Shown: piece by piece, positions 43,125 through 49,191 of the stretch
How the letters are laid out: each line of letters begins with the position of its first letter
How positions within the stretch are numbered: the stretch's first letter is position 1
NCBI RefSeq assembly: GCF_900698975.1
Contig: NZ_LR217722.1
Coordinates: 124,001-188,000, forward strand
Source: Buchnera aphidicola (Cinara splendens)
GTDB lineage: Bacteria; Pseudomonadota; Gammaproteobacteria; Enterobacterales; Enterobacteriaceae
Direction of reading: 5' to 3'
Length of the DNA: 64,000 nucleotides
Notes under the pieces: model-generated
Seen by the model: the letters and a program-made list of their open reading frames with translations, nothing else
What the model was told of the DNA's origin: nothing
Databases searched by the model: none
Position numbers and translations under genes: made by a program

Positions 43125-44282
43125 TTAATTACTATTTTTTCTTAAAAAAGCTGGAATATCTAAAAAATTTTTTTCATATTTTTGCGTGTTTTTAAAATTG
43201 TTATTAGTAGTTTTTTTAACGTTATTTAAATTATTTACTACTCTATGTCTTCTTAATGATTGGTTTCTATAATCCACTAATAATTCTTTAGACGATTGAT
43301 TTCTCATAAAAGAAATCTCAGATCTTTTTTCCATACCAATTCCTGTTGCTACTACTGTTACTCTTAAAGAATGATCCATTTGTGGATCTAGTGAAGTACC
43401 AATTACTACGGTTGCATTATCAGATGAAAATGCCCGGATAGTGTTTCCTACAGTTTCAAATTCATCTAGTCTTAAATCAAAACCAGCAGTTATATTTACT
43501 AACACTCCTCTAGCTCCTGAAAGATCAATATCTTCTAATAAAGGGCTAGAGATAGCAATTTCAGAGGCTTCTTCTGCTCTATTTTCTCCTGAAGCTGATC
43601 CTGTACCCATCATAGCATAACCCATTTCTGACATTACAGTTCTTACATCTGCAAAATCAACGTTCATTAGCCCTGGTCGAGTAATTAGTTCCGCAATTCC
43701 TTGCACAGCTCCCTTAAGCACATCATTTGCAGCTCCAAATGCATCAAGTAATGATATTCCACGTGTTAAAACTTTTAATAACTTATCATTAGGTATTGTT
43801 ATGAGAGAATCAACATATTTAGATAATTCATTTAATCCTTGTTCAGCAAAATTCATTCTTTTTTTTCCCTCAAAACTAAAGGGTTTAGTTACTACAGCTA
43901 CTGTTAGTATTCCAAGTTCTTTTGCAACTTCTGCTACTACAGGAGCGGCTCCCGTACCAGTTCCTCCCCCCATTCCTGCCGCTATAAAAACCATATCTGC
44001 ACCATCCAATGCTGATTTTAATGTTTCTTTATCTTCTTCGGCAGAATTTTTTCCTACATCAGGATTTGCTCCAGCTCCTAGACCTTTTGTAATGTTATTT
44101 CCTATCTGTATAGTTTGTCCTACAGCTATTTTCCTCAATGCTTGAGCATCTGTATTTATAGCAAAAAATTCCACACCTTCTATTTTTTCACGAACCATAT
44201 GTTCAACAGCATTACTTCCACCTCCACCAACACCAATAACTTTAATGACTGCATCATTACTTAATTCAGAAGGTTCAAACAT
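43125..44282 (-). CDS. ftsZ: Cell division protein FtsZ
   Basis: Tubulin-like GTPase that forms the division ring. It has 385 residues against 383 in E. coli. The tubulin signature is in [14 protein letters not shown] near residue 104, with [14 protein letters not shown] near 17 and [15 protein letters not shown] (T7 loop region) near 207. The C-terminal peptide that binds FtsA is kept as [13 protein letters not shown] ribosome site precedes the ATG. It is much better conserved than ftsA and murE beside it. It is the last gene of the remaining dcw cluster. Keeping both the C-terminal peptide and ftsA suggests a working ring. Confidence 0.98.
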
Positions 44283-45591: not shown

Positions 45592-46275
45592 ATTTTTAAT
45601 TAAATTAGATGATTGGTTTAATTTTTTATAAATTTAGTACATGATGTATATTTCATGTAAATATATAATAATAAATATTATATAAATATTTACACGTAAA
45701 ATGCATTTTATAATTATTTTTAATAATAGTATTTATAATAATATTTTAATATTATATTTTTTTTATTACATATTTATAAAAATCAAATATATAAGTTTTT
45801 AGTAATAATATGTATTGTAGTATAAATACCATAACAATGGTATTGTTATACTTTTATTGAATTTCAATAAATCATATATTTTATGAATATTAAATAATTT
45901 TTATGAATTTTAAAGATGATAATATTATTGCTGATATATAAATTTTAAATTTTTTAATAAATCATAATGTTGTTAATTTTATTTTTTGTTAAAATATACA
46001 ATATATTTTTTTTTGAAATAAAATTTATATACATTTAATTTTTGTAATTAAATAATAATGTTTTATGCTTATTTTAAATAACACTATATGTCAATATTTT
46101 TAGTATAGAAGGAGTAATAATCTCATTTTTTAGAAATAGTGAATAATGCGGTTTATTTTGATATGTAAATAAATATTTTATATTGTATTTTTACAATCTA
46201 GAATATAATCTAAAATAATTTTATTATATTAATAATTAATTTTATTTTTTTACAAATTTTCCTATACTTTATTAT
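45592..46275. other. Gene-free scar between murE and ftsA
   Basis: A 684-base A/T-rich spacer where E. coli has murF, mraY, murD, ftsW, murG, murC, ddlB and ftsQ. No frame resembling any of them is visible. There is one AGAAGGAG at 46107-46114, on the opposite strand to the flanking genes and without a following frame. The ftsA promoter is expected here. Confidence 0.65.
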
Positions 46276-47754
46276 TTATATATTTATGCTACTATTTTTT
46301 GATATAATATTTATATATTTAATGATTTTTTTTACCTTTTTTTCTTTTTCTGACACTAATATTATATCATATTTATTAGTTTGAGAAAAAACAAATTGTA
46401 TAGCCTGCTTTATATTATAAAATATAAAAAATTTGTTTTTTTTATTACATTCATTTAATATATCGTGTAGAATTAATTTTTCTTGCTTATTGTGAGGATG
46501 AGTATTTATAAAAACAATAAAATCAGAAAATTTTTCTATAATATTTCCTATAATTTTTCTAGTACTAATGTTTGTTATTTCCTCATACCCTAAAATACAC
46601 CAAATTTTTTTACAGTTATAATACTTCAAAGAATACAGTGCACGATATAATATTTGTGGTAAATGAACGTTATTTATTACAAATAAAGGACTTTGATTAA
46701 TTTGAATTTTTTCCATTTTTCTTCGTATAGGTTGTAAAAATCTACTACTTTGAATAAGTATATTTATTGAATATTTCAATAATAACATAGATGTCATAGC
46801 TAATAAAATATTGGTAATATTAAAATTGCCTAATAATAGGCTATATAATTTTCCTGAACCCCACGATGAGTTAAAGAAAATTTTTGTGCGTGAAGTACTA
46901 TAAATGATATTTATTACATTGATCCAAAATTTTGTATGAAAAACATTATTTTTTTTAAATATAGTAACAGAAATAACGTTTTTATTTTTAAATTTGTGTA
47001 TCCAATTACTTGCAATATTTTCATCTCCATTTAAGATAATATTTTTAATTGCATTATTTTTTAAAAAAGAAAATTTTATTTTTTCTTGTTGAAACATGTT
47101 TTTTTGGCCATCTATTAGATTATTAGTTAGATTTGTACATATTATTGATTCAAATCTTAAATTAGACATTTGTTTTTGCATTAAAACATGATAAGACATT
47201 TCTATTATTGTAATATCTATTTTTTTTTTTACTAAATTGTATAATTTTTTTTGAATGGAGTTTTTGTAATTAATATTGTCATAATTAGATTGTGTATATG
47301 TATCAATAGTATTTTCTAAATTTTTTATTATACTAATTTTTTTGTTAATAAGTTTTTCCCATTGTGCAATTAAATTAGCTACAGTAGTTTTTCCGTATGT
47401 TCCTATTACTCCGATTAATTTTATTTTTTTTTGTGGTTTATTAAAAAATCTTTCATATATTTGATGAATATAGTAACTTAATTTTTTAAAATAAATAATT
47501 AATGTATTAAATTGTGTAGATATACATAATCCGTGTTTTTTTTTTTTTGTTTCATATAAAACAACGTTAGCTTTATTTTTTAAAGCTTTTAAAATGTGAT
47601 TTTTTTTTGTATTTTTTTTTTTATGTAATAAAATAAATAAATCACCACTTTTAATTTTGGCGCTGTATTGAGTAATATTACAAATTTTTTTTTGAGGAAT
47701 ATTATTAATCCATGGATTTAGTAATATTTGAATATTATTTATTTTTTTTATCAT
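46276..47754 (-). CDS. murE: Degenerate MurE (UDP-MurNAc-tripeptide synthetase) with lost active-site motifs
   Basis: Intact frame of 492 codons that aligns with E. coli MurE (495), the ligase that adds meso-DAP to the peptidoglycan precursor. Seen and retained: the P-loop as GTYGKTT (residues 118-124, usual GTNGKTT), the carbamylated-lysine position (K227), and GNFNITN and RFLQPIRRKME in the C-terminal half. Lost: the UDP-MurNAc site around TTGS, VSSH (now MSYH), the DHLD motif (TNLSRDHLD now TNLTNNLID), DYAHTP (now NNVHLP), the GCGGDRDKGKR loop, DNPR (now THPH) and GKGHE. A 13-base T run is at 47536-47548. It is probably inactive as a MurE: either a very young pseudogene or a protein kept for another role. 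Confidence 0.85.
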   Translation of the reverse strand: MIKKINNIQILLNPWINNIPQKKICNITQYSAKIKSGDLFILLHKKKNTKKNHILKALKNKANVVLYETKKKKHGLCISTQFNTLIIYFKKLSYYIHQIYERFFNKPQKKIKLIGVIGTYGKTTVANLIAQWEKLINKKISIIKNLENTIDTYTQSNYDNINYKNSIQKKLYNLVKKKIDITIIEMSYHVLMQKQMSNLRFESIICTNLTNNLIDGQKNMFQQEKIKFSFLKNNAIKNIILNGDENIASNWIHKFKNKNVISVTIFKKNNVFHTKFWINVINIIYSTSRTKIFFNSSWGSGKLYSLLLGNFNITNILLAMTSMLLLKYSINILIQSSRFLQPIRRKMEKIQINQSPLFVINNVHLPQILYRALYSLKYYNCKKIWCILGYEEITNISTRKIIGNIIEKFSDFIVFINTHPHNKQEKLILHDILNECNKKNKFFIFYNIKQAIQFVFSQTNKYDIILVSEKEKKVKKIIKYINIISKNSSINI

Positions 47755-48114: not shown

Positions 48115-49035
48115 TTATAGTATTTCTGCAATTCTTAATAGTGCGCTGCGTGCGCGTGGGTTTTTTTTGATTTCATCAATATTAGGTTTTATTTTCTTGA
48201 TAATTTTCATTTTTTTAAATGTACGTTGTTTAATTTGCTTCTCAGTTATAGGTAAACCTTTAGGAATTGTTTGACATTGACTGTATTTTTTAAAAAATTT
48301 TTTTACAATTCTACTTTCAATAGAATGGAAGCTAATAATTGCTATTCTTGCTCGAGTTTTTAGAATTTTTATTAAAATGTTTAATGTTTTTTTTAATGAT
48401 TCTATTTCTTGATTAATATAAATACGTATAGCTTGAAAAGTTCGAGTAGCAGGATGTTTAAATGTATTTTTTTTAGGAATAACTTTTTTAATAATTTCTA
48501 CTAAATCTAGTGTTTGTAATATAGGTTTTTTTTTATTTCTTTCGATAATACAATGAGAAATTTTTTTTGCATATCGTTCTTCTCCTAAATTTTTTAAAAC
48601 ATTTTCTATTTTTTTTTGGTTGGTTTTTTGTAACCATTGCCATGCAGGTATTCCGGTTGTATTATTCATACGCATATCTAAAGGTCCATTTTTCATAAAT
48701 GAAAAACCTCTATTTGCTGTATCTATTTGTGTTGATGAAACACCTAAATCTAATAAGATTCCATCAATTTGTACATTATCAAGATAATGTAAATCTTTTA
48801 TTACTTTAGAAAAATTTCCTTGTTTGATATAAAATCTATTATCTTTTATTTTCTTTCCAAGAAGTACAGATTGTGGATCTTGATCTATTGCATATAATTT
48901 TCCTGATTTTCCTATTTTTTTTAATATTTCTAACGAATGTCCGCCTGAACCGAATGTTCCGTCAACGTATACTCCATCAGGTTTAATATTTAAAGCATTG
49001 ATTGATTCTTTTAGTAATACTGATACATGTGACAT
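48115..49035 (-). CDS. rsmH: 16S rRNA (cytosine(1402)-N4)-methyltransferase
   Basis: Methylates N4 of C1402 in the 16S rRNA decoding centre with SAM. From the ATG at 49035 it has 306 residues (E. coli 313). Family blocks are YVDGTFGSGGHSLEIL near residue 25, DGILLDLGVSSTQID near 90, RGFSFMKNGPLDMRM near 110, KHPATRTFQAIRIYIN near 210 and ISFHSIESRIVKKF near 245; it ends NPRARSALLRIAE. The frame runs 14 codons further upstream to 49077, but those residues have no counterpart. It is the only gene remaining from the start of the dcw cluster, probably kept for its ribosomal role. Confidence 0.96.
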   Translation of the reverse strand: MSHVSVLLKESINALNIKPDGVYVDGTFGSGGHSLEILKKIGKSGKLYAIDQDPQSVLLGKKIKDNRFYIKQGNFSKVIKDLHYLDNVQIDGILLDLGVSSTQIDTANRGFSFMKNGPLDMRMNNTTGIPAWQWLQKTNQKKIENVLKNLGEERYAKKISHCIIERNKKKPILQTLDLVEIIKKVIPKKNTFKHPATRTFQAIRIYINQEIESLKKTLNILIKILKTRARIAIISFHSIESRIVKKFFKKYSQCQTIPKGLPITEKQIKQRTFKKMKIIKKIKPNIDEIKKNPRARSALLRIAEIL

Positions 49036-49191
49036 AATTTTTATTATTAATAATAAATTTATACATTCTCTAAGCATTATGTTTTAAAAATAAAAATTTT
49101 TAAAATATTTAATAGAAAATGTATAAATGGTTAAAATGAATGATTGTAATCAAATAATATAATTTATTTAGTATTTTTTTATTAAATATAG

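Follow-up and report, generated by a model that had tools for sequence, protein, structure and literature searches.

A MurE-derived protein with erased acceptor-site motifs is kept under purifying selection in Buchnera of Cinara aphids

What keeps a single MurE-like frame open in a locus from which its companion wall genes have gone, and what could its product be doing there? The window analysed here is a stretch of 64,000 nucleotides (G000:C1:124001-188000) from the 445-kb chromosome of Buchnera aphidicola (Cinara splendens). On its minus strand it carries a MurE-derived open frame of 492 codons, named MurE* here, which starts with ATG at 47754, stops at 46276-46278 and has zero internal stops. 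The sequence-only reading had described a frame that aligns with MurE from end to end, had found most active-site motifs erased, and had left the choice between a pseudogene caught ahead of its first stop or frameshift and a P-loop protein kept for another role. The open frame was confirmed and its alignment to E. coli MurE spans query residues 6-472 (phmmer, PDB sequence search, best E 5e-59). We hold that MurE* has a selected function other than that of MurE, with a probability of about 0.95. The frame and its neighbours are arranged as follows.

46276..47754, minus strand: MurE-derived frame MurE*, 492 amino acids
44338..45591, minus strand: ftsA, next gene downstream of MurE*
43125..44282, minus strand: ftsZ
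48115..49077, minus strand: rsmH, next gene upstream of MurE*

The gene order of E. coli is much richer at this position, with ftsL and ftsI standing between rsmH and murE, and with murF, mraY, murD, ftsW, murG, murC, ddlB and ftsQ separating murE from ftsA. All eight genes of the latter interval are gone from the window locus, and neither ftsL nor ftsI was found between rsmH and MurE*. When the E. coli cluster proteins from ftsL to ftsZ were sought in 20-kb stretches, two genomes of the same family returned 13 of 13 (G032) and 11 of 13 (G058), and the matching stretch of the window's genome returned three of 13, namely murE, ftsA and ftsZ. The gap between MurE* and ftsA (45592-46275), occupied by eight wall or division genes in E. 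coli, comprises 684 bases without a listed frame, and its length varies from 339 to 688 bases across eight relatives. A clear Shine-Dalgarno sequence was not seen in the 40 bases ahead of the MurE* start.

Within the genus the frame is open in eight of 16 genomes, the window's genome counted, and the seven other open copies are 69-96% identical to the window copy. As to membership of the wider Mur ligase family, the window MurE* passes the Pfam middle-domain model Mur_ligase_M (86.8 bits, cut-off 24), which all eight open copies match at E <= 0.01, and narrowly misses the Pfam C-terminal Mur ligase domain (25.4 against 28.4 bits). The cut-offs of the MurE-specific models are missed, both for the NCBIfam MurE equivalog (305.6 against 586 bits) and for TIGR01085 (225.3 against 257.3 bits). 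As a control for this miss, ten of ten tested neighbours (rsmH, ftsA and eight more) pass an equivalog-model cut-off. A structure model built from three sequences is weak (mean pLDDT 58.6), and a Foldseek search with this weak model placed E. coli MurE chains first (E 4.5e-27, TM <= 0.45) and a chain of PAP11, the plant MurE homologue, at rank 17.

The fate of the motifs is given below with residue numbers of MurE*; active-site columns in the text are numbered as in E. coli MurE with Met1 counted.

47383..47403, minus strand: P-loop GTYGKTT, residues 118-124, identical in all eight open copies, the change of N to Y being fixed in all eight
47200..47202, minus strand: E185 (E. coli E183), kept in all eight
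47074..47076, minus strand: K227 (E. coli K225), the carbamylated-lysine position, kept in all eight
46810..46830, minus strand: GNFNITN block, residues 309-315, with F311, N312 and N315 kept in all eight and G309 in five of eight
47110..47121, minus strand: erased DHLD, now NLID, residues 212-215, His lost in all eight
46657..46674, minus strand: erased DYAHTP, now NNVHLP, residues 361-366, D and Y replaced by N in all eight, P kept in all eight
46492..46503, minus strand: erased diaminopimelate motif DNPR, now THPH, residues 418-421, D and R lost in all eight
46336..46350, minus strand: erased GKGHE, now EKEKK, residues 469-473, opening a lysine-rich tail in which several new residues are fixed

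In the window copy GCGGDRDKGKR has likewise become GYEEITNISTR, and TT158-159 reads NI. The comparison set consisted of 21 other MurE sequences, from E. coli and from 20 genomes of the same family (our selection of small genomes, with a few others added, from the 139 that gave a match). At 79 columns at least 20 of these 21 carry the same residue; all eight open copies keep 27 of these columns, all eight lack 35, and 17 are mixed. Among the columns kept in all eight are G113, G116, T117, G119 and K120 of the nucleotide loop, E183, K225, N308 and N311. Those lost in all eight include T115, N118, T158, T159, R193, H211, H215, G341 and R342 as well as D357, Y358, C386, G388, D414, R417, G465, G467 and E469. 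At 46 columns the clade is invariant for a residue seen in none of the 21 other sequences. We take E183 to be a magnesium ligand and K225 (K227 of MurE*) to be the equivalent of K219 in S. aureus. Of the features that a functional MurE would carry, the P-loop and the lysine are thus present in all eight copies, the former with N118 changed to Y, while TT158-159, R193 and H211, presumably the UDP-MurNAc side and the catalytic histidine, are absent in all eight, as are D414 and R417 of DNPR and the glutamate E469 of GKGHE.

A carbamylated lysine is part of the MurE active site, in which the free carboxyl group of diaminopimelate is bound by the Asn and Arg of DNPR, and its side-chain amino group by the leading Asp of that motif together with E. 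coli Glu 468, which is 469 with Met1 counted (PMC3829189). With D414, R417 and E469 gone from all eight open copies and N415 from seven of them, the diaminopimelate acceptor site is therefore gone. Motif placement agrees between the phmmer and MAFFT alignments, and in two further alignments the lost residues are missing from the lists of invariant columns too; realignment therefore does not restore the catalytic motifs, and after four alignments the claim that DHLD, DYAHTP, GCGGDRDKGKR, DNPR, GKGHE and the UDP-MurNAc site have been lost stands, now as a trait shared by all eight open copies. The retention of the P-loop, the carbamylated-lysine position and the GNFNxxN block was borne out as well, G309 being kept in five of the eight.

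Judging from these residues, ligation of diaminopimelate to UDP-MurNAc-dipeptide by MurE* cannot be expected. Nucleotide binding is likely, since the P-loop, one metal ligand and the carbamyl-lysine position are kept; at nucleotide-side columns the E. coli residue is retained in all eight copies at 11 of 14 and the clade is invariant at 13 of 14, and none of 19 other listed active-site columns keeps the E. coli residue in all eight, both lists being our own choice, so that their Fisher tests are indicative only. Within the ATP site, R342 has become K, D357 N, T115 I and N118 Y, and H211 has been lost, which leaves ATP binding less than certain. We regard a nucleotide-binding scaffold, by analogy with a plant homologue, as the rather probable form of the non-MurE function.

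Among alternatives to such a scaffold, an ATP-dependent enzyme, ligase or ATPase, with an acceptor pocket rebuilt for another substrate is possible but on the whole unlikely. It would account for the conservation of the P-loop, E183, K225 and the NFNxxN block, and for the new residues fixed at former active-site positions, such as R345-K346, N361-N362, Y390, E469, E471 and K473 in MurE* numbering. However, residues H211, D357 and R342 contact the metal or the nucleotide in Mur ligases, and their change in all eight copies makes turnover by MurE* less likely. In addition, the DNPR positions and several of those in GCGGDRDKGKR vary within the clade, which would be unusual for a new binding site. 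The opposite proposal, a non-enzymatic protein without any nucleotide binding whose P-loop is kept for the fold only, agrees with the change of several ATP contacts and with conserved stretches beyond the nucleotide site (Y67-S79, Y100-K110, E224-L231). We find it improbable, as the loop, E183 and K225 have stayed invariant amid many altered active-site positions.

MurE* might also retain its MurE role, within a peptidoglycan pathway that is residual or altered and is supplied by the host or a co-symbiont. Precedent comes from the Buchnera of Rhopalosiphum maidis, which lacks murC, murE and murF and still makes a wall (PMC9116674), and dapD of the diaminopimelate pathway lies within the window. 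This is most improbable, with residues of both substrate sites gone from MurE* and with no chromosome match at E <= 1e-3 for murA-D, murF, murG, mraY, ftsI and mrcB. The chromosome-wide search, which could miss short or fast-changing proteins, covered 16 E. coli proteins (the 13 of the cluster with murA, murB and mrcB) at this threshold and left 13 of 16 without a match, murE, ftsA and ftsZ being the sole matches. There is one Mur ligase middle domain genome-wide and no second Mur ligase, and no match to the MraY-type family was found in the genome. MreB was not recognised among three MreB-family matches in the genome, which by reading are two Hsp70-type genes and FtsA. This Buchnera lineage appears to have lost its cell-wall pathway.

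In Buchnera of the subfamily Lachninae nearly all wall genes have been lost, and the Buchnera of Cinara cedri has none; murE in other Cinara is not treated in the consulted portion of that source (PMC9116674). Losses reported for Lachninae Buchnera comprise murA-murD, murF, murG and murI, murE not being listed, and the term murE is absent from the main text (PMC11188193). In an account of nine Cinara Buchnera genomes, the single 'mur' term is murE as a Hamiltonella marker gene, and the word 'peptidoglycan' is not used (PMC6908640). Among the best matches listed from the open-licence literature, none dealt with a Buchnera murE that is degenerate or repurposed.

The evolution of the sequence itself speaks for a protein in use. 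A codon model fitted to the eight open copies, on a topology that agrees with the species tree, gave a tree-wide omega (dN/dS) of 0.082, with 2dlnL of 804 against omega = 1; the comparison with relatives that the sequence-only reading had proposed thus yields a value that is not near 1. For nine neighbours the same model gave 0.053 (ftsA), 0.066 (rsmH), 0.066 (lpd), 0.080 (erpA), 0.042 (ilvH), 0.046 (ilvI), 0.046 (dapD), 0.053 (map) and 0.009 (ftsZ); rpsB was left out, its complete G002 copy not having been extracted. The omega of MurE* is the highest of the ten genes, with erpA nearly equal, and MurE* is the least constrained of the ten, though its constraint is firm. Because the deep branches approach saturation, weight falls on the close pairs; omega was 0.095 in the closest pair (G000/G004, dS 0.21) and 0.040 in another close pair (G006/G007, dS 0.38). 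By domain, omega was 0.096, 0.065 and 0.099, the minimum falling in the nucleotide domain. The MurE* protein is under long-lasting purifying selection. That the frame is a pseudogene caught ahead of its first stop or frameshift, as might be supposed from the one apparent break in G015, the many stops in G003 and the lack of a match in G012, can be dismissed on these omega values, on internal stops in every neutral simulation (300 runs for each of four distances, mean 13 stops already at distance 0.1), on eight genomes that hold the frame open, and on an omega of 0.081 in G015 itself (against G002) over the 432 codons after its break.

Other sources of constraint were considered and rejected. 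A mutational cold spot is ruled out, as the tree-wide dS of MurE* (5.4) lies inside the range of its neighbours (4.2-8.8). The ORF list (minimum 80 aa) contains no second frame across the gene that could impose constraint by overlap. Constraint at the DNA or RNA level was likewise set aside, synonymous sites being free to vary and the aligned 130 bases upstream poorly conserved.

Within the genus, beside the eight genomes with an open frame, G015 holds murE* with one apparent frame break and G003 a remnant with many stops, and a match is absent in six of the 16 genomes (G009, G012 and four deeper genomes). In the interval between ftsA and rsmH the longest run free of stops measures 493-506 codons in the eight holders, 77 in G003 and 52 in G012. 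A species tree of ten other genes, which was built without G102, G021 and G035, groups the holders in a single clade next to G009; nested within that clade are the broken G015 and two non-holders, the sisters G003 and G012 (support 88). Over evolutionary time murE* is dispensable, and the decayed copy of the sister lineage shows how loss of selection looks. The sequence-only reading had held that broken frames in sister genomes together with dN/dS near 1 would mark a plain pseudogene; the breaks exist, once in G015 and many times in G003, but dN/dS is nowhere near 1, so both appear to be losses that came later, in side lineages. The break in G015 (L024, the ftsA-rsmH interval) lies in an A-rich stretch near codon 45. 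Read-through by slippage is known in Buchnera. Given this A-rich context and the omega of the later codons, the G015 break may have arisen recently, may be bypassed by slippage or may stem from a sequence error, and the copy is a candidate for transcriptional slippage.

The constraint of today was preceded by a burst of change. The stem branch leading to the eight copies of the MurE* protein measures 1.07 substitutions per site, where seven control genes have 0.25-0.53, and relative to outgroup tips it stands at 1.92 against 0.58-0.99. Inside the clade its rate is ordinary, mean root-to-tip distance being 0.228 for MurE*, 0.248 for ftsA, 0.251 for lpd and 0.268 for rsmH. The argument rests on the absolute stem and on the stem-to-outgroup ratio rather than on the stem-to-crown ratio, which is higher in ftsZ (6.82) than in MurE* (4.67) because the ftsZ crown is very slow. 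Outgroup copies of less than 70% length were dropped, four of the eight genes had two outgroups instead of three, and dapD, map and rpsB were omitted for want of outgroup copies. A burst followed by renewed constraint, together with the 46 clade-fixed residues, is what one would expect if the function changed once the pathway had been lost.

We thus return to the nucleotide-binding scaffold. MurE* would have lost the MurE reaction when the Buchnera lineage gave up peptidoglycan and would then have been retained for another job in Buchnera of Cinara aphids. The protein would still fold as a three-domain Mur ligase and would still bind ATP or ADP, and it may act as a nucleotide-bound scaffold that holds other proteins, comparable to plant MurE in the plastid RNA polymerase (PAP11). 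Of the P-loop protein kept for another role that had been proposed at the outset, the selection, the loss of the MurE acceptor sites and the retained P-loop are observed; the other role itself we infer.

Known systems offer likeness and difference in about this sense. MurE* shares with E. coli MurE (PDB 1E8C) the end-to-end alignment, the P-loop, E183, K225 and NFNxxN, and the gene position downstream of rsmH in a division and wall cluster; it differs in lacking UDP-MurNAc, diaminopimelate and catalytic residues in all eight copies, and in that 13 of 16 wall and division proteins have no match on the chromosome. PAP11 is a plant MurE homologue found in a complex outside wall synthesis, the plastid RNA polymerase, also where genomes lack most Mur enzymes (PMC12681378), and resembles MurE* as a MurE homologue kept while most other Mur enzymes are missing. 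Both sequence and fold searches with MurE* return PAP11 chains, as they would with any MurE homologue. Unlike MurE*, PAP11 is nuclear-encoded and longer (chains of 768-774 aa), and it keeps DNPR or DNPK in most land plants and their kin, a motif that MurE* has lost; for the plant protein, too, an altered enzyme has been weighed against a scaffold (PMC12681378). Mur ligases occur in cytoplasmic scaffolds with MreB, MurG and MraY, a precedent for complex membership (PMC4929429), but in the window's genome mraY and murG were not found and MreB was not recognised.

As partners of MurE*, FtsA and FtsZ are doubtful candidates, proposed by gene position only. Both were found in all 16 genomes, including those without MurE*, and their persistence speaks against an obligate role with them. 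RNA polymerase is another candidate partner, by analogy with PAP11. A search for co-loss compared G000 and G006, which have murE*, with G003 and G012, which have lost it, over 368 G000 frames of 70 aa or more that do not overlap. Apart from murE* itself, coverage fell below 60% in both G003 and G012 for two genes alone, flgI and cyaY, which are present in G006. Across the 16 genomes neither tracks murE*, so that a co-loss partner was not found: flgI is without a match in the murE* holder G002 and has one in G009, where murE* is missing, and cyaY is present in G008, G009 and G014, all without murE*.

Some observations on other parts of the genome may be recorded here. The frataxin gene cyaY (G000:C1:429911-430246) has a match in 12 of the 16 genus genomes and none in G003, G012, G010 and G013. 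The flagellar P-ring protein FlgI (G000:C1:268616-269392) is an open frame of 259 aa that matches only positions 1-229 of the 343 of its family. In 10 of the 13 genomes with a flgI match the main match ends at 227-246, G001 and G012 hold fragments, and G014 alone reaches 343 unbroken. A search with the first 3000 bases of the 6,037-base plasmid of this genome hit leucine plasmids of Buchnera, a genus that accounts for 64 of the 88 matching records; the best match was that of Cinara pseudotaxifoliae (87.7% identity), followed by Cinara cedri (77.7%). A third contig, G000:C3, measures 2,704 bases, and its first 2000 bases are without a match in the plasmid collection (blastn).

Genomes of about 450 kb tend to drop unused genes. 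Here a single wall enzyme has persisted beyond its pathway, its active site mostly erased and its sequence still protected by selection, which points to a role for MurE outside wall synthesis. A label 'murE' assigned by similarity would in this case wrongly imply a step of the wall pathway. MurE* would be a bacterial counterpart of PAP11. We suggest, tentatively and by analogy, that MurE may have been co-opted independently after peptidoglycan loss in a plant organelle and in an aphid endosymbiont, and that in Buchnera it may serve, with nucleotide bound, as a subunit of the machinery for division or for transcription. If true, the nucleotide-gated three-domain body of MurE would be a preferred spare part for the core machines of wall-less, organelle-like cells.
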